Assembly: GCF_964204645.1 (NCBI RefSeq) | Contig: NC_134028.1 | Location: forward strand, 7,853,001-7,917,000 | Origin: Tubulanus polymorphus | Lineage: Eukaryota; Nemertea; Palaeonemertea; Tubulaniformes; Tubulanidae | Length of the DNA: 64,000 nt | Direction of reading: 5' to 3' | Part shown: piece by piece, positions 1-59,100 of the stretch | Layout: every line of letters starts with the position of its first letter | Position numbering within the stretch: the first letter of the stretch is position 1 | Notes under the pieces: model-generated | The model's database searches: none | Seen by the model: the letters and a program-made list of their open reading frames with translations, nothing else | Told to the model about the DNA's origin: nothing | Position numbers and translations under genes: made by a program

Positions 1-1310
1 CGTTGCTTTAGTTATATTTTCCACTCATTTATCGTCACTCACTCTTCTTATATTCTATACCATACTATTGTTTTAGATAATTACCCCCTAGTTTGCTTTT
101 ACTTAAATTTGTTTAGTCAGTAACATTTCTACGTTGTAATACCGCTAGTTCGCTTCACTCTTAATCACTTAATTTGTTTCTTTGTTTTTGGCATATATAG
201 AAACATGTATACTTCTCGATTTTTTGGCATGAATAAATATCTTTTTGATAACTCATTTTGCCTGACGATGACTATAATAGTACGATAACCACACTCAAAC
301 GTGGAGAACGGATAATAAGATGAAAACCAACTATGTACAAATGAAAAGAATCTTAAAATCGAGAATTTATTTATTCAAAAAAAATAGAAAAAAAATTCTC
401 GATTTTAAAATTCTTTTCATTTGTACATAGTGGGTTTTTATCTTATTGTCGAATCAACTTTTCGGACTTCATCTTTCTCGTCTTATTAGTGAGGGATTCT
501 CTACACAGTGTATAAAAACGATAGCTTGCACCTTGTTTCTGATATCCCAAGTCAAGACGTCAACTGACTTTTTAATCATGGACCCTAGTCCGTGGTTTAT
601 TAACTAAATCTTTTCATTCTGACTTAATCATACACACATCATCTGTGATTGATCGCTTGTTATATCTTGGAGTAAAACTCCAAGGTTATATGCAACGAAA
701 ACTTTCTTTCCTGGGTATCACGCGGATGGCGGATGAGCAACTAAACTAATTATCTGAGACCTAACTCTCTTTGAGATGATCGAACAATCACGCGTGTTAA
801 TGTGTCTAATTTAGATACTATTAATTAATAAGCCGTGATTAATTATCTCATTTTCAAAGTCGACCTAGTTTTTATTGAGGGATTAGCCTTCATCCCCTCA
901 TTGTTCCCGCCGAGTTCAAGTTATGCATTGTTCTTGAACAAACAAACGCTGGACTCTGGCCAGCCTATGCATGCATGTGTTTCGCGGACATCAATGCGTC
1001 AGTGTTGGACATGTCTATAGTGTTATAAACCATATGTATTAGTCGATCCAACCTCGCCTGGAGACTTACACCCATTTCAACGTTCGAATGCGATTTCTCT
1101 ACTTTATATAATGAGAAATATGGAAAATTATTTTATTAGAAATATAGATAACATATCTAATCCTGGATTTACATTCGTTATCGTAGTAGAAGAAGGGAAT
1201 GATAATTGTTGAAATGGTAAGATTTCTGCGGTTTTCAAGTTCAATATCTACATCTCGTCGTGGAGATTTTATGAATTTTGTCTGAAAAAATCGTTGTTGA
1301 CCTATTTCAG
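1..1310. other. AT-rich sequence 5' of the first visible exon
   Basis: No coding exon could be supported here. The stretch ends in a good acceptor (tttcag at 1305-1310) for the first exon of the kinase-like gene, so at least part of it is an intron of that gene. It holds a 55-bp-arm inverted repeat at 314-447 and a small hairpin around 664-688. The first exon and promoter of the downstream gene may lie here or left of the window. Confidence 0.5.
314..447. repeat. Hairpin element with 55-bp inverted arms
   Basis: Bases 314-368 and 393-447 are inverted copies of each other with only a few mismatches, separated by a 24-base A-rich spacer. Transcribed RNA would form a long stem-loop. The shape fits a short foldback or MITE-type element; no target duplication was identified. 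Confidence 0.8.
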
Positions 1311-4300
1311 GCCGATGAGGAAAATTCACCGGTCTCCGCTGACGCGAATAAAACCAACAGAAACAGAAGTAGACGTCGACGCTCTAGAAGGAGAAATTTG
1401 AGCAGTAAGTTGTTTCCCTTGGATTTTGCTATACGCAAACACTTCGATACATATATTGTCATGTATACCTGTAATGTAAATAGCATGGACAGATAAAGCG
1501 ATATGTGTCATCAAGGTTATTGTTGAATATTTCAACTAAAGACCAGGAGGAGTTAGTGCAGATAACAGATCCAGGGCTTCAGTGTACTCTCAATAGCTCT
1601 ATACTCGGCCCACGGGGTGTTTATTTTTCATATAAAAAGCACTGGGTATAATTTGAGAACCAATTGTCTCTAATCTTGGTATTAGAATATAAAATACACA
1701 TGGCTTAGATTTGTGATTTTGTTTGATGTAGTATGTACTTTGCTTATATTTCAAATATAGATTATATGTATAATAACGGTTTTAGATTATGATATCACGT
1801 AGACAAGTCGTGGCATAGTCCTTAGTAATTAGCGTTATGCTCTTCTCAACAATTCGTGCACACTTTGTAGCAGTGTCATTAATGGCAGCTGCTTTTTCTA
1901 CAAGTAAACACATGTACTCTCAGTCCAGATTATACGTACACACAGCTTTATTGTGAATTCGCAGCTTGTGGTCTGGTCACACGTTTGAATATTCTAGTGT
2001 GACGAAAGCTTCTGTCATTTTATACATGTTATCATGTTACTCCACTCACTTAATGGCTCAATTTATACCTTCACCCGTTAATTGATAAACCGGGACTATT
2101 ACGTATTTCTGAAGCGTTGTAGGCGCTCAAAATTGCCGACTGCGTTCTCGGACACGGCTTACGTAGTCACTTCATACATGGACGTATAAACTAGTTAATA
2201 CGTCCATGCTTCATGTAATGAATCTTCAGTAGTTAATTGTACTTGCCCCGCATTTTATTTTGTATTGGTAAAGAAAGTAGCACAGTTAGTAGTAAGAATA
2301 GAAGCTTTGTATATTTAGAAATACGTTTCCGAATTTTCGGTCTTTTTCTAGCAAATGGCTTTACTTCCATGTTCATAATTACAAAGGAACGCATTTGTAA
2401 TGAATGGGAAAAATCTCGATATCTGAGTAGTATCAACATGGTTAGATTTGTTAATTTGTCATTTTTACGATTCTTCAGAAAATTCTAAAAGTAAACCGAT
2501 CTTGGAAGTCGGTGAAGTTGTTAACGACATTAAATCTCCCGCCGAGAGAACGACGGATGACATCAAGAAGCCGGTTCTTTCCGACCTCACCGAGAATGAT
2601 GCAAACGATAAAATAAACTCGGTAAGTTTTTGACTAAATTGGACGCGTAATAGACTGACTGAAATATAGGCCTTTACAGAGTCCCTACGATTCCTTGAAG
2701 ACTCCTTCTAAACCAAAAATATTTTTCAAGGTCCTTGAATATCCTTGAATTTCAGCAAAATGCCCAAAAGTCATTGAAAACCCCTTTGAATTTTGAGAAA
2801 TTGGCAATTAGAATTTTTTTTAGGTTTTAGGCCTAGTTATCATACACAAGAGTCCACCGAATTAAATTGTTTACTAAGATAAACAGTACCGATTTAGGAG
2901 GAGTCGACAGTAATTGGGATATGAAAGTGATACTTACACTCCTCTAAATTTGAAATTTTCTCCTTGAAAATTCCTTTAATTCTCGAATGATTGAGGGACC
3001 CTGCTATATTAAAGTTCGCTTACGGAACTGTGTTAAAGCATAGTTCCCTAGTAATCTTTATGATATTGCCCACATGCTAGCAAGTGGAGACATTCGTCAG
3101 AAATATCAAAATTGTGATATTATTTCATAGAATCGATGCATATTTCAATTTGCATTGGCCTAATTTTCTGCTCTTAATATATAAATGTATTAAAATTACA
3201 TGTTGAAGTTCGAGAACTATATGTTGAATCTTGGAGTAATTATCTAAATTACTCCAAGGTTGAATGGGCTGAAATGTTGGTGCATATAAACTTTAATCCT
3301 ACTGGGCACAGAGAGTGCCGGTATATACCGCTAGTACATGTTTATATATATCTCTCTTCGGTCAAGGTGAAATAAACCGCTACGGTTTAGATAATTCACC
3401 TGCAGATGAACTGACGCGACTTTGTGTCCTATAATTGGTCCCTTTTTCGTGTCTTCTCTCCTTGTGCTGTGTTCTAACGAGAAAGAAAGAACATTGAACA
3501 AAAGTCTAAGCAATTGGTCGGATGAACGTTGTTTCCTGACTTGGATAGAAATGTTTTTGATTAGTTAACGTGTCTGAAACTGATAATGATGTTTTCAAAT
3601 AAAAGTGAAATAGTATTATTCTACATTGTACAGCCGCCGAGCAACATGAAGTCTATGATTATGATCTTAACGAAAACTGTAGAAAACGGAGTAAACGCTT
3701 CAGTCGCGCAGGCATCCCAACATATCTACGCCAAGGTAAGCATGAACCTAATTTGGACATGCATTTCGGGTGCATGCCCGTGCCGAGGAGTGGTTCGGGG
3801 GTAGCGAACGAACCCCCTAAAGTTCAAAGTGCCCTTCAACAAGTCAAGACAGTGTCAAAAAATTTGGGTCACGATTTTTCGAAATTGGATACAATTTTCA
3901 TGCATTTGGAAAATTAAAAATCAATCCATTGTCAAATGATTTAGGTACCCGTGCATTTCATATAAGCCATAAGAAAGTGACAAAGTGCCCTTTTTCTTGA
4001 AATAGAACTGCCCCTCCAATAAGTTCGGCACCGGCCTGGGGTGTTTTTTTCTTTTTTCATCGTTCTACCAGCGGTTCTATGTTTAAAATAATCAATATTT
4101 TCTGCCAAAAATACATTTTTGATTCAGTCTTTAGACTGATAACCGCTTTGAATTCAGATTTCACATTTCGGGTTCGTAACCCCACTTTTAACGCTTAACC
4201 ATTTGTCTCGGTCATAAAATACCCGACCATTTCGTGTAGTAATGGATCTAGTGTCCCTTAGTTAACAGTCGTTTTTCTGATGACGAAAGCGAGGACATTT

Positions 4301-7300
4301 TAAAAGCCCCAGGTCACATTGAAAATACAAAGATTCACGCGTCACATATATAATTTTTTTCTATAGAGGTGACCTATTCGCCAGTGTTTAAATTCCAGCG
4401 TTAGAAGCCACGTTTTTATCATACAAACCTGCGGACTCAATCTTCATCTTTATTCATAGAATAACTATACTCATTCAGCGAATACTCGAATTACAATTTT
4501 CATAAAACTTGACATATTTCCTCATGAGGATTGGCCATCCCCGAACCAATGTGTATAACTATAAAACTCTATGGTTTTAGGTTGGAGTTGATGATAATTT
4601 ACCGAACGATAAAGAGTCGATTCATCAAAATGGATTTGGAATTACATCGCAAACATCACCTCAGTCTATCAAGGTACGTCAGCAAATTCATTCGTTTTAT
4701 CATCGGCGAGATAAGAAGTATTAATTACGGACTTGATCGGAAGTGCGGGGTTATTGGGTTTGTAAAACGAGTGATTCGAACGGAGCTATAGCTCGGTTAC
4801 AGATACGGATCTCGGTTACGGATCTTCAACCCAGAGGGATGGGAGAGAAACCTTTCTGATGAAACAGCTAGCTCACTGGGTAGTACTCCTAACTTAAGCG
4901 GTGGGGGGGGGGCTGGGGGTATCCCCCTTTACTCGTCGCAAGTTTGAGGTCATACTCGCAGACGAACAGTGTGCAGATGTCTATTTTTGAAATGCTTCGA
5001 ATTTTTTTTAAATATTTTTTCATTTTTTGGTTTTTAATATTTTCATTTCAGACGATTGCAAATGCTGGCGTTAAAACAACGGTGATAACAACTGAGTCAA
5101 CGGCGATTAATGGAAATATACCATCAATAGCCGACAAGGTAAGACATACTGTAAGGAATTCGATTATTTTCTATCTGAGTCAAGTTTTGTTAAGTTGCTT
5201 AGGTTTGTATGGTGGATGATTCGGGACATGTCAATATTTTCTGTTCATCCCCCACGAAGATGCACAAATAATTTTATCGCGCAAAAACAAACATTCGTTT
5301 TTGCGCCCGCTCAAAAACATATATTCCTTTTTGCGCGTTTTCACGGAAGATAAATAAAAATATTGACATGTCCCGAATCAGCCACAGGTTTGTAAAGAAA
5401 TATTAGATCTATAGTGTAATCACATCATTCCAGACACTGAAGTTTAGTTTGTTCATAGTCGTTAGTAGATTTTTGGTCAATCCGAACCACATGAAACATC
5501 GAATTGTGAAACTACAACAATTTTGAATTCTATGTTTTCATTCCAGCAAACTACGCCTGACGATAAGGTACCCGATCCGGATCAGCCTTCTGTTGCGAAC
5601 AACAATATGACTGTAGATACTCCCGTATTCAAGTACAAGGACACATCGGAACTGTCAGCCTCGGAAAAGGTCATTATAAGATGATTTATAGGGTTCTGAC
5701 GGCTTAAATCCTTGATCGAAATGCCTAAAACTCCTTTTAAAACTCTTTCAATTTTGAGAAATAGGCCATTAGGAATTTTTTTCTAGATTGTAGATGTACA
5801 ATGGACTAACCCCTTAAACAAAACAGTTGCGACCTAAATTTTCTTTTTACCAAATTCGACAGTTACCGAATTAGGAACCCAGTTTAAAGGATAAAAATTT
5901 GTTCAGGAATTAACGATTTACCAAAATAAACAGTACCGATTTAGGAGGAGTCTACAGTAATTGGGTTATGAAAGTGATGCAGAACTTCATCAAGGAAATT
6001 TGAAATTTAAACTCCATATATCCAGGAATGGCTGACCTGTAGGGACCCTGATATTGATCATCTTTATTTGCCAAAAAAATACATTTTGTTATTTGATGGA
6101 ACAGGTGACGATAAATGACTCGTCAAATTCGCCAGAATCGACGGAGTTACTCGAGGATAAGCCGCTCGTTTCTGAACAAAAACCGACACTTTCCCTGGAG
6201 GTTTCTGATGCTAAGTCCGATGAATCGACCACCAACAAACCAGCGGAAGATATCTGCTCGATTCCACTTCTATGTGCGACATCCCCTGCAATACTCGATA
6301 GTTCCCTCCCAGACGATGAGACAACGCTTCAATCAACTTCCTCAAATACTGCTGGCGAGGTAATATCAACTCATCCACCATTCATTGATCTGATCTGATC
6401 ATTTTGCGCATTTACGTGCTTTTATTAACTTAATTGTTTAAGCCTTGATACGTAATTAATCCAGTGGTAATGGGAACAACCCTCTATGTATTTAGTTAAC
6501 CTTCGCCATTCTAAGACTTTCGTGAACTTCACATTATAAATATGTCTCCCATGTTTGCTTTACACAGATAACGGAATCATCGAATACAACAGCAGCTCAA
6601 CAGTTACCACCAAGTCTTATAAAAGAGTTACAAACTACAATTGAATCTAGAAATACAAAACTCCCGCTGAATTCATCAACGACATCAACAACGACAATAG
6701 AGAAAGTAAGAACAGTCTCCTGATTGATACTCGTTTGAATTGTATTTTGTATTGAATTTTATTTGTAAGGTTAATTTGTTATTTTTCAGTTGCCACCTGA
6801 TCAAGAAGTGGAAAGTAAGCAGCCTTCGGTGGTGAGCTACGATCTACAGATGAAAACGCCGATTGGACGGATTAAGGAACAAGCGAAAAAACGAACTTCA
6901 ACCGTTCGAGTTTCGTGTCTGGTAGGTGACGAAAAGCCGCCATCTATCGTCGTACCGCAAGGCGTATACTCGACGCTTTTAGATTATACTCTAATCAAAA
7001 AACTTACTCATGCCGCGAAACAATGTTGGACAACAAAATCGCTGGTCGACTGCGTGAACTGGGACGATCTATTCCTGAAGGACGCGTACAGACGCGTGCG
7101 TTTGTTTAAAAGCGAACGCGGTAGTTATTCGAAAATGGGACCTCGACATTCGTCTTGCGTGTATCGTGCCGTGTGCGACGGCGATCCGATTGTGCTGAAA
7201 TACTTCAAGAAAAACGACACGAAACTGCGCGATATTCTCGAAGAAGCCGTCTTGCTACTGTATTTACAATCTACTCCCACTGTGCCGCGAATGTTAGGCT

Positions 7301-7908
7301 TGGTGCCGCTTCAGCCAGACGACCGCGAGGACGGTTACTGCGAATGGGCTCTAGCTATGAAAGACGCCGGCGTGCCGTTAAGACTGGTAATAGCTCAGGA
7401 AATAACCAGACGCCGACAAAACCAAGCGACGAAATACTCTCTATCGAACTGGGTAGAGTGTATGTATCGAGTGTGCGTTTTGGTGGACTTCGTCCACAGG
7501 AAAAAAGGCGTCGTCATGAACAATGTAAACGTCGATAATATGGTCGTCAAAGACATCGAGGGGAAACTGATCCCGATTCTCGTCGATACGGGTAACGCGT
7601 TTCCCGAGGGCGAACGCGAGTACGCCTACAAACCGCGCACGGCAGACGATGCGAAGAAATTCGGCACCGATAATCCAGAAGTAGCGCCCGAGATATTCAT
7701 GGGCGGTAGGGCGGATTGTCGCAGCGATAACTATTCGATCGGCGAAATGTTGCGCAAAATGAAAGTCTATTTCGAAATGGATTTCGACTGTATCGATAGG
7801 TTGATAGCCGGGTGCTGCGACGCGAAACCCAAACGACGACTGTCAACGCTGTCGATAGCGAACACGTTACAGGAATTAGCCATAGTGCTTAGCGATTCCG
7901 GACACTGA
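1311..7908 (+). CDS. Kinase-fold protein lacking the catalytic Asp, with long disordered N-terminal region (5' end not identified)
   Basis: Nine exons join in one frame: 1311-1404, 2479-2621, 3634-3735, 4581-4673, 5052-5138, 5547-5669, 6105-6359, 6568-6705, 6790-7908; 717 residues visible, stop TGA at 7906. The first exon encodes an Arg-rich run (SRRRRSRRR) that could be a nuclear signal. Exons 3-8 encode low-complexity Thr/Ser/Pro/Glu sequence and all are phase 0-0. The last exon encodes a protein kinase fold: IVLKYF with the ATP-binding Lys (residue 137 of that exon), an EE pair in helix C, NPEVAPEIF in the APE position and RSDNYSIGEM with the helix F Asp. The catalytic loop reads MNNVNVDN where HRDxxxxN is expected, and DFG reads DTG. 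The proton-acceptor Asp is therefore replaced, which suggests a pseudokinase (inference). The upstream exon and start codon were not found. Family name unknown to me. Confidence 0.75.
2677..3003. mobile_element. Dispersed repeat, copy 1 (hAT-like ends)
   Basis: This intron segment begins CAGAGTCCCTAC and ends with the inverse of CAGGGTCCCTC. It shares long blocks with 5689-6050, such as AAACAGTACCGATTTAGGAG, and a block resembling 26990-27050. The ends look like those of non-autonomous hAT elements; no clean 8-bp duplication survives. Confidence 0.6.
3774..4037. mobile_element. Possible short DNA element with GC-rich ends
   Basis: Within an intron of the kinase-like gene, GCCCGTGCCGAGGAG at the left is partly matched by the inverse of the right end (GGCCGGTGCCGAAC). 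The interior is AT-rich non-coding. The match is short and no target duplication was found, so this is tentative. Confidence 0.3.
5210..5385. mobile_element. MITE with 29-bp terminal inverted repeats and a 9-bp flanking duplication
   Basis: Bases 5212-5240 and 5357-5385 are inverted repeats, 28 of 29 matching (GTGGMTGATTCGGGACATG and on). Immediately outside, AGGTTTGTA occurs at 5201-5209 and again at 5386-5394, as expected of a target-site duplication. The interior is non-coding and contains a smaller inverted repeat around TTTTTGCG. It sits in the intron between exons 5 and 6 of the kinase-like gene. Confidence 0.85.
5689..6050. mobile_element. Dispersed repeat, copy 2
   Basis: Second copy of the family at 2677-3003, in another intron of the same gene. 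It keeps the AAACAGTACCGATTTAGGAG block and ends with GTAGGGACCCTG, the inverse of the expected CAGGGTCCCTAC terminus. Confidence 0.6.
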
Positions 7909-9852: not shown

Positions 9853-10911
9853 TTAATGATGCGCCACAACTCCTTTGCGGGATTTCATGTACTGTTTGAA
9901 CGAATCCAAGCCGCTGTTGCACTCTTCGAAATACGGCAACTTTTTCATCGTATTCAACCAACGCGAAACGTTCTTCCAGCCGGAAATATCGTAGTCGATG
10001 AGGGTAGAAAACATAACCGACGCGGCGATGCTCAGATCGGCTACAGTCATATGATCGCCAGTAACGTATTTCTTCCCTTCGAGATACCCGTCCAACAGGT
10101 CGTACGATTGCTTCATTGCTTTCTCTTTCTCCGGGTCCAACTCTTTGCCTTCCAACATTTTCGGGTACTGGAATAAAAAGAAAACCTGTCTGATTTGTCT
10201 GTAACCCCTAGTAACCAGTGGTGGCTTTTGCCACCGAGGCATGAAAAGGTGTGGACAAGAGAGTTCATGAACTCGATCTATACATACTATATACTGTCCT
10301 GTCTTTCCGTACATTTTGTCCATGTCGAAAAACAAGAATCTATTAATTTGGTAGATTTTTTCGGGATTGTCTTTCGGATAGAAGTTGCTATTCTTACTGT
10401 ATTTTTCAGCCAAATACAACATTATTGCTCGACTGCAAAATTCAATCGATGAACAATTTTTAGATTTCGTAATAAACAGCGCCGATGCAGTTAATATTCA
10501 ATGTTCATTTGCATATTCATATTGAATTTAGGCACGCTGTAAAATGGATAGCTTTTGTATCTTTTGATTATTTACCAATCGGGCTGCAGCAACACGCCTC
10601 AAGGTTTTGGCCCTTAACGTACCTTTCCCACATAATGAAGCCATTGTCATCAACGGTTGGGATGCAATGCTGAGGATTCATCTGTGTGTACAAAAGGGAA
10701 AAATTATTCAAATTTTCATTACAACATACGTATTACCAAAAATACATACGAATGTCTGTTTTCATACCTTGAGAAATTCCGGGGTCATGTGTTCATTTTT
10801 CATCAGATCAGTATACTTCAAGTTGAATTCCAATCCCAGTTCTTTCAATACCATCCAGACTCCCCGACACGGGGAGCTGACGTGCATCATGTAAAAATTA
10901 ATTGGTGCCAT
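9853..10911 (-). CDS. Glutathione S-transferase, Delta/Epsilon-like
   Basis: Four exons on the minus strand, 10911-10768, 10681-10623, 10432-10288 and 10167-9853, join with GT/AG sites into 220 aa, the normal cytosolic GST length. The N-terminal thioredoxin-like domain carries SSPCRGVW near residue 12, where the catalytic Ser of Delta, Epsilon and Theta enzymes sits. Next come NPQHCIPTVDDNG with the cis-Pro and WESRAIMLYL, the glutathione-binding Glu-Ser pair. The C-terminal helical domain includes TGDHMTVADLSIAAS, the conserved N-capping motif of helix 6. Expected activity is conjugation of glutathione to electrophiles in the cytosol. An acceptor-like site 21 bases upstream of the ATG (on the minus strand) suggests a separate non-coding first exon. 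Class assignment is by motif only. Confidence 0.93.
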
Positions 10912-15136: not shown

Positions 15137-15277
15137 ATTCAATCGACAAACTTTCATTGAGTGGCCCGAGTGAACCTGTTGACGGAGGATTATTTCAATA
15201 TGTACTATGTGAATATCGTCGCGCAGCGATGTCGTTCTTAAAGCGGAAAATGTTGCCGACGTAATAACGACAAAACA
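15137..15277 (+). other. KAT6 5' UTR part of the first coding exon
   Basis: A pyrimidine-rich acceptor ending TTTTTTCTTCAG at 15136 precedes this untranslated stretch, which runs directly into the KAT6 ATG. It implies at least one upstream non-coding exon. Confidence 0.55.
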
Positions 15278-35029
<19,752 letters not shown>

Positions 35030-53190: not shown

Positions 53191-56100
53191 TCACAGTCGG
53201 GTATCGAACACTGCCGGATGAGCGTCAACCTGTTTGTCGCCGATGATTTTCGGCTCTAAAGGATCGTCTTTCGACGCGTACGCTAAATTTGAAAACGACG
53301 ACGGCACAAACCGGCCGCTACCGCGATGTTCCTGCACGTGTATGTCGGAATCTTTCAGCGACGACCTGGCGTCGTCCGAGTCGGAGAACGAATCATCGCT
53401 CAGTAAACCGTCGCCTTGACTGCGTGAGAAGTTGAAAAATACCTGAAAATGAAATAATGATTGACGATAACCACGAATTCATGATCAGCAATTTCAAATG
53501 GTAGAGAAATGATTGTTTGAGTAAAGAAATCTTTTGAGTTGAAGATCATTTACAAAATTTTAGAGGAGATCAGTATTTTAAAGGTTGATACACATTTTGA
53601 CCACCTATACACGCTGAATCAAATCATTTCACAAGTGACTTCAGATAAACACATCTTTGGTTATTTTCACATTTTCTACTATAAAAAATTTACCTGATCC
53701 AAGGTTGTTTGACTGACGGAGTAGTCTTCAATTCCTTGTTTATCTTTTTCGCGTTCGATGTGTCCAAATATACTCGGCAACATTGATGTTGAATGCGGGA
53801 TGCTGAACTCCAAAAAGTTCAAATGTTGATCCTAAAATTGAGCAAACATTGCTAGATCAATCATTTTACAAATCGTTTCTCTAGCTATAAGAGGCGAAAT
53901 ATTTCAGCATGTTCATATATATAAAATCCACTAGGTTTAAATGTAAAGTAAATATAATGTTTTAATTTTACAATGTGGAAGAATATTTCAAGAATCTAAT
54001 CACAAACCTTCAAGATCGTTCCAGGGAATCTACCCTTGATAAAGGCTGCAACCAAAGCTGGAGAAGCGTCGGTGCTCAATCTCAACTGTAGAGTGTACCC
54101 TTCACCAAACCTACAATATCAAATGTACATATGAGAGAACCTTCGAGATAACAGAGCTGGCGTAACGCTTCTGTACCCCTCTTTGTTCGATGGTTGATAT
54201 TTAAAAAGGTCCAAGCCAAGATTGTCAATTCAACAAATTAAGATTTTAAGAATTATGTGGGCCTTGTAACTAGTAGCTCAAAAAGCTTTCCTCTGTTAAC
54301 CAAACCAGAGCTGAAATACAGAGGTATTCTATTTTAGAACATACATACTTGTTTCGAAGATGTTGGGGACTCCCGATACACTGGAAGTGACCGTTTACCA
54401 TTATCGCTAATTTTGAACACATAGCTTCACATTCATCCATCCTGCAATCAAAAATTGATTAATTGGCGAGAAGATTTCTTGAAATTAAGAGAATCAAGTA
54501 GAATCTGTAGAATATGTTTACCTATGTGATGATAAAATCACCGTGAGTCTGCTATTAACAATGTAATTTCGTACCAACTGTCGCATTTTGACATCCATAC
54601 CAGCAGTTGGTTCATCCTACATTAATATTTAAATATACAACCTTCAATCTAACAATCGCAGTAAGCCTATAAGTATCTATCATTTGAGATGAATGAAATT
54701 TACTCCGTTTATGAGGAATGTCTGAATGAGATCAAAATCGAGCAAATTTTATGGTATATCTTAGTGCAGCAACTACCCGGTAAGAACGGTTTTAAGATTG
54801 ACATCCACTTCGGGACCTAAGGTCTTTGTATCAGCATCGGTCTTCATCGAGGAACTGACCAATGACCATTAATGGATCATTTCACTTACGAGCATGATGA
54901 GAGTTGGTTTGCCGAGAAGAGCGACTGCAATTGACAAACGTCGTTTAGTTCCACCGCTGTACTGGCTTATAACCATATCTAAATAATCCTGCAGTTCTAA
55001 CACTTTCACAATATCATCAACGCTCTACAGAATAAAAAGATAGTGAGATTTAAGACAGTAAATATTTTGGTTAATCGAGTCCTTCCTAATCAGTGTGACA
55101 GATTCCAAATCTACCAACGCCTTCAATTTTCGACGAAAGATTGGTCAAACGTCTTAACTACTGATTACTGATTCCAAATAATACCTGCTTTAACTCCTTT
55201 GATTTGATACCCTTCAATGTTCCGTAGAAGTTTAGGATTTCAAGGCCAGTCATTTGTAGATCCAAGGCATCGAATTGAGGACAGTAACCAACGTTTTGTG
55301 CCATTGCACCCTTCTTGTACGTGACATCGTGCCCGGTGAAGAATATCTGACCAGCAGATGGCATTATCGCTCCAGTTATCATGCTGAATGTCGATGTTTT
55401 GCCTGCACCATTTACACCCAACAGTCCAAAACACTTAAAAACAAATTAATAAACATTACATTAATTTGAAAAGGTTCATTCACGAATCTTGTTAGTTATA
55501 GAGATATCTTCATTGAATTTTTCAAGCTTCTTCAAATTCCAACTCTACACCCATTACCGGTGCTAATATTTTGACCACCCATATATTTGGTTGATATCCC
55601 AAAATTTTTCCTTGGAAGTACAAGGAATTACACCGCCACTAGTAACCCAGTGAACAGCCATCAATGAAACACTGTTAATCTAGTTAATATTTCTGTTTAC
55701 ACAGCAAGGGATGCTATTGATGAACCAGTCGTGAGCACTGGTATCATCTATTGTGACCAAACAGCACAAGTTCACAAGGATTTGAATCCACCACCTATTG
55801 ACCAAAAACCTTCACAACCAATGCCATGAAATGGGAAGTAGTACCTCTTTCTCTGGAATTCCAACTGTAAGCTGATCGACAGCCAGTACCCGCTGGCGAC
55901 CGGAACGGTAAATCTTAGACAATTCATGAATCGAAATGACGTCGTTGTTGCTTTCTTTGCCGACAACGCGCTGTCTCTCCAAGCTGACGTCGTCGTCCTC
56001 CAAATCCGAGTTGGGTAATTTCTTCGGCATCGCGTGACAACACAAATAGTCACACTCGCATAACAGATTTATAACGAAGAAAACAAATCCCTCAACTGCC

Positions 56101-59100
56101 AGGGCGACGCAATGCCAGCCCATAACCTCCGCGGAGAATGGGCTGTTGTAGGTGTCTTGTCCAAATCGTTCGAATAGTGATGATATAACTTGGTTCCTTC
56201 CCAATTGAATTAAGGCCTCACATAGTGTATACGGTGGGAATGCATAGACTATATAGCCAACCACACCATACACTGCCTTTATAACCTGAAGATAAACAAC
56301 GAACATGAAAAAGTGAAAAATGAAATGTATTTCTATCGTCGAAGGTGTTTCTCAGAGGGAATGGCTATGTTATGAATCATTACCTCGCTGTTGGTGGAAA
56401 ACACTTCTAGGATGAAAACAGTAAACAGTAAAAGTACTCCGCCCATTAAATAAAACATGAACGTTGTCAGGTACGCGGTGGTGCCATCTTTATAACAGCG
56501 AGACAGCAAGTAAGTCAGCGGTAGAATTGCCCAGCTTAAGACATGAAAAAAAAAGACTTCATGAACTATCTGAGCAGGAATCATCAAAAAGATATTCCAA
56601 AATGCCATCTTTGAAATTAAAAACAATTTGTCATTTGTTTCGGTAAGAAAAACTCCAACCTTACCCGAATAGCATCAATATGGCTGCTGTTCCACCTAGG
56701 TTCTGTTTGGCTGCGAAGATATCGAGATTGAAAGCGCGCATGATAGCAATACTTAACGCAACCGGTATCGCAAATATTATCTGAAATGGAGAAATCCTTA
56801 AAGTCAATACATGTACTTCAAAGGTCAAGATGACGATTTATCAGAAGACAGAATAACAAACAAAAGAAAGATTTGGTACTACATGTATTGCATTTCCTGC
56901 CTGCAATATTTTTTCAGCTTCCCAAAAACATAATAATTTCGATATAAAATATCATGACATTGGCGGATATATCAAAAGCAGTCAGTACAATTACGTGACA
57001 AATCCTCAGCTCAAGCCCTGCTCAACACCCACCGTCAGCAAATTCCCTGTTGCACAAAATACTTACCAGATCCCAAAAGAATGTAGAGATCCAGTAAAGC
57101 ATAGGCGTCACACCGTAGAGCGTTTGTAGGTGTTTTTCACTAGTGATTCGTTCTTTAACGATGAAAACAGCCAGACTTGCCGGTATAAAACAGAACGCCA
57201 CGAGAATCATAACCGTAACACCGACCGATGCCGCTCGATTCTTCCTGTAAATTGTTCAGGACACACACATGAAAGTTAGGTACAAGTAGCGCTATGTAGT
57301 AACTGCGTGATATTGAGAATGTCCACGAGAGGTTCAGAAAGGACAAAGAAGGAAAGTGTAGAAACTATAAGAAATACAAGATCATTTATTTCATTGCAAC
57401 TGTAGTATTGACCCATAAGATAAACCAAGGACGACTATATATTCCGAAGAAGAGTCTGTTATCTGATTTGTTTCATTTACCAAATTCTGACTGCCTGAAT
57501 AGTCGCGACTTGTGATAAAGTTAAGATGAAATAAATTATAACAATGGATCGTGATCTAACTTGAATAAAGCAAACCCATAGTTGGTACTAGAGTTAGACA
57601 CTCTTCGTTTCACTTACAAGTTTTCTTGGCTCAGCTGTTCCTCGTTGAAGTAAAGTGGGTCATTCACTGTCAATATACCTAAGATAACCCATCATATCAA
57701 ATTCTCAGTCTATGTACCGGTATTCATAAGATTATGCAAGAAATAACATTTTTACAAGCTATGCGTCATCAATTTCTAGAATGTGTTGACTTTGAACCAT
57801 TTCTTTTTTTATTTCTGAAACAACTTACCATAGTCGTTGGGATTTTGAGTAACATTTAAGTTGGCACGAAGCATCGCGTTAGTGAAACCGTTGTAGAATC
57901 CGGGTAGAGCGTGAATTCCCCGATTATAGAACCATATAGTCGCCGTTTGGTCGTTTACAGCGGTGCTCTTAGGATTTCCAAATTCCCAGCCACCATATCT
58001 ATTCATTAAATGATGTCAATATCTTATATGCAGTAAGCTTACAATTTTGAGACAATTTATAGAAAATGTTCATCGACATTTACAGAGCTTAGTAGAATAT
58101 TCAAATGTTTACAAAAAAAACTTATAAATGGGGAGTATGAATTAAGAATTGAACTAACCTGTTGTAGATGAACTTCTGCCATGTCGTCAGAATCCAGTCA
58201 GTTATATTGCGTCCAGTCAAATCATAAACAGTCGTACTCGTTTTTGTTTTTACCCGAGGCACAGGCAAGCCCGATGCGCCGGCGGGACATTTCAGGCGAT
58301 CACTAGTACAATGACAGCTCGGTTTCTTGTTGTATTTGATGGCCATTACTTGATCGACAGCCGGCGTGTCGAATGTAGCGTTCGTATTCGACAGACATTG
58401 GTATTCTTGATACATCCATTCTTTCGTTCTGTTGAAGTTGTTCATGCAGGATACACTCGGTCCCGGATCACTGACCAATGCGTTGATCAGCTTACTATTC
58501 ATACTGACTGATGGGTTAGAATTCCTATAAGAAAAATTAATCAACCAATCCATCCATATAGAAAATTCATGGTATCTATAGCATAATATCTATAGCATAA
58601 TAATTAGATAGTACTAGAAGTAGAGACATTTTAGGCCGCCCATGACAATTCAACTTTCGAACGGGTGTCTAGTTCTTACATCGGAACGATTCAATATGAA
58701 ACAAAGTAGCTAAAAGCTTTGAGATGAATCAAACGACATACTTGACAAAAGCTGGTAGATTCGGTCCGTAGAGTTCAGGCAACATGCGTCTAGCGGGCAG
58801 CTTGCTTAAGTTGATATTGTACGTCGCAGTCCAAATGGCGAATGTCACGCAGATGAGTGGCATCAGAATATGCGATAGATAACCCCACATATATCGACGA
58901 TGGTGATGGAACCTTTTTCCCAGTAATGCTCCGAACTGTCGCATTTTCAACAGGCAACCGGTATCGTGTTCATTGGTCACTTTGTTCTGGATGTTTACTG
59001 TAGTTTCGATGTTCTTAGCGGTGGCTTCCTTTTCATCGACTAAAATACATCAAATTCCGGAATCTCATTAAACTCGTATTTCTTTTGGTACTATTTTTGG

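Follow-up and report, generated by a model that had tools for sequence, protein, structure and literature searches.

The window analysed here, a 64,000-nucleotide stretch of the Tubulanus polymorphus genome, contains on its forward strand a candidate gene whose last exon encodes a kinase-like domain with an altered active site. The domain lies wholly, and without an intron, inside this exon (6790-7908), which is itself part of a 377-codon stop-to-stop open frame (6775-7908, + strand). Eight candidate exons upstream, all of them open in the sequence, with AG/GT borders and one common frame, would supply an N-terminal arm of ∼346 residues (candidate exons 1214-6705). The Thr/Ser/Pro-rich disordered arm and the Arg-rich motif described in an earlier, sequence-only reading of this DNA are both present: Ser, Thr and Pro make up 32% of the arm, and the motif, NRNRSRRRRSRRR, stands at its start. 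This basic stretch may be a nuclear localisation signal. These features, and others elsewhere in the window, are collected in Table 1.

Table 1. Features of the window (positions are those of the window; residue equivalents in PKA numbering)
Feature	Position	Strand	Basis or remark
Candidate start codon ATG, intron directly after (ATG/gtaaga)	1214..1216	+	predicted from sequence; exon 2 opens in phase 0
Candidate exon with Arg-rich motif, ends in phase 1	1311..1404	+	AG/GT borders, open frame; same phase in L003 and L002
Candidate exon, phase 1 to phase 0	2479..2621	+	border and frame analysis; intron-phase comparison with L002 and L003
Candidate exon, disordered arm	3634..3735	+	AG/GT borders, phase 0
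Candidate exon, disordered arm	4581..4673	+	AG/GT borders, phase 0
Candidate exon, disordered arm	5052..5138	+	AG/GT borders, phase 0
Candidate exon, disordered arm	5547..5669	+	alternative shorter form 5547-5567 with better donor
Candidate exon, disordered arm, Ser/Thr/Pro-rich	6105..6359	+	AG/GT borders, phase 0
Candidate exon, disordered arm, Ser/Thr-rich	6568..6705	+	AG/GT borders, phase 0
Last exon	6790..7908	+	open frame, AG acceptor 6788-6789, phase 0; stop TGA 7906-7908
Putative pseudokinase domain, ∼274 residues	7084..7905	+	paralogues L002-L005; hhalign to canonical kinases
beta3 Lys (IVLK; K72 equivalent), kept	7198..7200	+	alignments with paralogues and canonical kinases
Helix-C Glu (E91 equivalent), kept	7243..7245	+	alignments
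MNN replacing HRD; catalytic Asp166 to Asn, codon AAT	7516..7524	+	alignments; the column is Asp in L003 and L005
Catalytic-loop Asn (N171 equivalent), kept	7537..7539	+	invariant column, all five paralogues
DTG replacing DFG, metal Asp kept	7585..7593	+	alignments
APE motif	7684..7692	+	Pro and Glu invariant in paralogue alignment
Helix-F Asp	7726..7728	+	invariant column in paralogue alignment
ORF with glutathione S-transferase C-terminal domain	9856..10497	-	GST_C E 4e-9
Probable KAT6 (MOZ/MORF)-like gene	15242..35029	+	named by its order of domains rather than by a match to the catalytic domain
SAMD1 winged-helix and linker-histone domains	15242..15898		E 2e-25
PHD-like ORF, part of the KAT6-like candidate	16653..17048		
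Disordered Ser/Gln-rich frame, 1040 codons, part of the KAT6-like candidate	31907..35029		
ORFs resembling an ABCA-type transporter	55815..58589	-	weak ABC2_membrane_3 match, E 6e-4, below Pfam cut-off

Paralogues, for which a search had been suggested, were found within the same genome, where four are clear (L002, L003, L004 and L005; Table 2). Intron phases are common to three of the copies: the window gene, L002 and L003 each have one exon that ends in phase 1, a further one running from phase 1 to phase 0, and a kinase exon in phase 0. In the window gene and L003 the phase-1 intron cuts a Lys codon (A/AA) after a basic stretch. Among these three copies, the six extra phase-0 exons are present only in the window gene. 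The kinase domain is contained in a single exon in L003 and L005 as well.

Table 2. The window protein and its paralogues in the same genome
Copy	Contig	Identity to window protein, E value	Pfam	Catalytic loop	DFG motif
L005	C10	25%, 8e-8	Pkinase, E 7e-19	LNDIKPDN	DFG
L003	C2	33%, 3.2e-57	Pkinase, E 3.4e-18	INDVKANN	DLG
Window			no Pkinase match	MNNVNVDN	DTG
L002	C4	45% (48% over the domain), 1.6e-78		INNIGMEN	NLS (metal Asp lost)
L004	C1	24%, 5e-13	PK_Tyr_Ser-Thr, just above cut-off	FEYIGLRN	NFC (beta3 Lys also lost)

A Pfam search with the window sequence alone gave no Pkinase match, and phmmer against the PDB with the same sequence returned nothing significant, the best match (E 0.015) being to a kinase. 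For this reason the link to kinases was made through the paralogues, two of which, L003 and L005, have good Pfam Pkinase scores whereas the window gene has none. So as not to depend on either of these two, we ran hhalign with an alignment of the window protein and L002 alone against ten canonical kinases from the same genome. The match, spanning 182 columns from beta1 to helix F, had a probability of 97.8, an E value of 7.8e-13 and a score of 88.3, whereas 60 column shuffles scored no higher than 24.1 and the reversed alignment scored 11.5. Given this E value and these controls, the fold homology is firm, and the window domain is, by homology, of the protein-kinase fold. The kinase-like fold that had been read from the last exon is thus borne out, both by hhalign and by L003. 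AlphaFold2, run first without a partner and then beside one bacterial kinase, gave models of mean pLDDT 35 and 37, too poor to serve as evidence; the order of elements in the second is kinase-like, though highly uncertain. Of the profile search against kinase families that had been proposed, the direct part gave no Pfam match for the window sequence, and the assignment to kinases came by way of L003 and hhalign. The family which had not been recognised does lack a dedicated Pfam entry, but it represents a divergent offshoot of the ordinary protein kinases.

Residues of the active site are given below as equivalents in PKA numbering, with those of the window protein numbered along the last exon. 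In the alignment to canonical kinases, M-N-N lies opposite H-x-D and VNVDN opposite LKPEN, which places Asn245 in the column of the catalytic Asp (D166), Asn247 in that of Lys168 and Asn250 in that of N171. Asn245 also falls exactly on the catalytic Asp in the alignment with the paralogues, and neither alignment puts another Asp in the catalytic position. The Asp of VNVDN was considered as the catalytic base and rejected, since its counterpart in the alignment is the Glu of HRDLKPEN, the residue that precedes the loop Asn. The sequence-only reading is therefore upheld in its account of the active site: HRD is replaced by MNN and DFG by DTG, the proton-acceptor Asp is Asn, the metal Asp is retained, and the ATP-site Lys, helix-C Glu, APE motif and helix-F Asp are kept at the positions given in Table 1. 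The MNN codons are ATG AAC AAT, the final one being a single base from an Asp codon.

Overall, the domain keeps the equivalents of K72, E91, N171, D184 and G186 together with the APE motif and the helix-F Asp, and it lacks G52 and G55 in the glycine loop (GPRHSS, where G50 is the sole glycine kept of the three), D166, K168, whose position is occupied by Asn, and F185. When a pseudokinase is defined by loss among the beta3 Lys, the HRD Asp and the DFG Asp, the window domain has Asn for the HRD Asp and the other two intact; the beta3 Lys, loop Asn and metal Asp are residues 137, 250 and 266. On these grounds we consider it quite likely that the window gene encodes a catalytically impaired pseudokinase. 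Because the proton acceptor, the glycine loop and Lys168 are lost together, the domain would most likely be without useful phosphotransfer, working instead by binding. Mg-ATP could be a structural ligand, held by the Lys-Glu pair together with the loop Asn and the metal Asp.

Comparable changes are found in well-studied pseudokinases: HER3 has Asn at the catalytic Asp (D166), and the DFG motif of JAK2 JH2 reads DPG. The window protein resembles HER3 in this Asn and in keeping the beta3 Lys, the loop Asn and the metal Asp. However, HER3 is a receptor tyrosine kinase without the helix-C Glu, which the window protein keeps, whilst the window protein is without Lys168 and the glycine-loop glycines G52/G55 and no receptor architecture is seen. 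With JAK2 JH2 it shares the Asn at D166, a partly degraded glycine loop and an altered middle residue of DFG. It differs in that JH2 is followed in its own chain by an active kinase domain, whereas the window protein has one kinase-like domain, and in that JH2 has retained two glycines of the loop and has a Lys that replaces Lys168, neither of which the window protein shows. The pairing of G50 with G52 that serves as the glycine-loop criterion for JAK JH2 domains is lacking in GPRHSS, which has G50 only. Membership of the HER3 or JAK families was rejected, the closest relatives being L002-L005 of the same genome; neither receptor nor FERM-SH2-JH1 domains were found in the window gene model.

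Micromolar ATP binding is known for HER3, JAK1 JH2 and JAK2 JH2, and in the JAK JH2 domains, too, Asn occupies the place of the catalytic Asp (PMC4718504). By this precedent, Mg-ATP could be held via Lys137, Asn250 and Asp266. The case for ATP binding is weakened by the loss of G52, G55 and Lys168, and because the glycine loop is degraded we regard nucleotide binding, on top of the impaired-pseudokinase reading, as roughly an even bet. The same losses would suit a domain that acts purely as a protein-binding scaffold, without nucleotide, in the manner of the more degraded L002 and L004, both of which are without the metal Asp and one of which, L004, is also without the beta3 Lys. In contrast to those copies, the window protein keeps all of the Lys, Glu, Asn and Asp that hold Mg-ATP in ATP-binding pseudokinases, and so we see a nucleotide-free scaffold as a possibility with real weight, though somewhat short of even; being a sub-case of the main pseudokinase reading, it shares part of its confidence with the latter.

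Both HER3 and JAK2 JH2 have weak kinase activity (PMC4718504), and since they carry the same D-to-N change, some activity may remain in the window protein. An atypical active kinase, which would transfer phosphate slowly with Asn or act on a special substrate, as seen for JAK2 JH2 and HER3 in vitro, could draw on this precedent (PMC4718504) and on the retained K72, E91, N171 and D184 equivalents. The degraded glycine loop and the loss of Lys168 as well make this distinctly unlikely. Furthermore, the sister copy L002 has additionally lost the metal Asp (INLS), and activity is therefore not conserved on the window+L002 branch.

In the tree, whose branches are long and in which the placement of L004, L005 and L019 is unsure, the window gene groups with L002 (98/98), L003 and L004 are placed nearby, and L005 together with the HND kinases falls on the same side, separate from the canonical kinases (97/96). 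When the catalytic motifs were masked, the window gene again grouped with L002 (97/97), followed by L003 (93/92), and all were apart from the canonical kinases (97/94). HND-loop kinases in this genome also include L019 and L060-L062. The HND/[LI]ND kinases L003, L005, L019 and L062 share with the window gene their side of the tree and a non-HRD catalytic loop, but unlike it they keep the Asp. Amongst the five paralogues the catalytic Asp is kept in L003 and L005 and absent in the window gene, L002 and L004. From these graded catalytic loops it follows that the Asp was probably lost inside this paralogue family, and probably on the window+L002 branch. The simplest reading is that replacement in HRD began with the His and the Arg, with the Asp kept, that the Asp was lost later, and that L004 lost it separately. 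The ancestor would then have belonged to a divergent kinase family of this animal, with [LI]ND for HRD and the Asp kept, and the change to Asn would have come on the branch shared by the window gene and L002, the paralogue nearest to it.

The loss of catalytic motifs in several paralogues might also be expected if the window gene were a decaying or dead copy without function. We think this very improbable, as the 377-codon frame is intact and eight more exons are open, bordered by AG/GT and consistent in phase. Moreover, the domain is 48% identical to that of L002 despite near-saturated fourfold sites, 42 of 58 comparable sites differing from L002 and 31 of 38 from L003. The unbroken frame and this identity indicate protein-level constraint, an argument drawn from protein identity alone given the saturated synonymous divergence; dN/dS is not measurable because of this saturation.

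The impaired pseudokinase that we favour would thus consist of a complete protein-kinase fold preceded by an N-terminal arm that is long, disordered and in part basic. The arm may direct the protein to the nucleus. Bound Mg-ATP could stabilise a conformation that engages a partner, the domain then acting as a conformational switch or scaffold, and the partner might be a paralogue that kept the Asp. A broader proposal, which we regard as doubtful, is that the [H/L/I]ND loop marks a distinct kinase clade of this animal group, which spawned pseudokinases with graded loss of the active site that regulate the Asp-keeping paralogues, forming a lineage-specific signalling module.

We found no description of this paralogue family in the open-access literature searched. 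In the oyster kinome 28 kinases are ambiguous and possibly oyster-specific (PMC4883820); these may or may not include relatives of the family. Pseudokinases with this D-to-N change are already known, and the paralogue series is mildly interesting in an otherwise ordinary case. Although pseudokinases are familiar, studies of them in spiralian invertebrates are few. In the present genome the active sites of a single small family range, in several steps, from apparently intact to fully lost, and the family lends itself to working out the order in which catalytic residues disappear. The window member is missed by the standard Pfam kinase model, and kinome counts made with Pfam only overlook such genes.

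Viral contigs searched with the family alignment and with L005 contained no relatives. Prokaryote contigs searched with L005 gave two kinase matches, one having an HND loop with the Asp kept, and close kinship of these two to the family is not indicated. The Bacteroidales kinase ORF L083 (226-1113) has the HND loop IIHNDIKPDN, also with the Asp kept, and the R-to-N change in HRD is therefore not confined to animals. Within the worm genome, the HND-loop kinase ORFs L019 and L020 (G000 C10:8114719 and C36:92970) are an apparently identical pair with equal scores, of which the C36 copy, L020, may be an unplaced haplotig; L060 and L061 (C8) form a nearly identical pair of such ORFs. A sixth relative, L080 (1300-2133, + strand; G000 C5:4392974), is nearest to L004; only its N-lobe is visible in its frame, and its beta3 Lys is replaced (VNVVLLNK).
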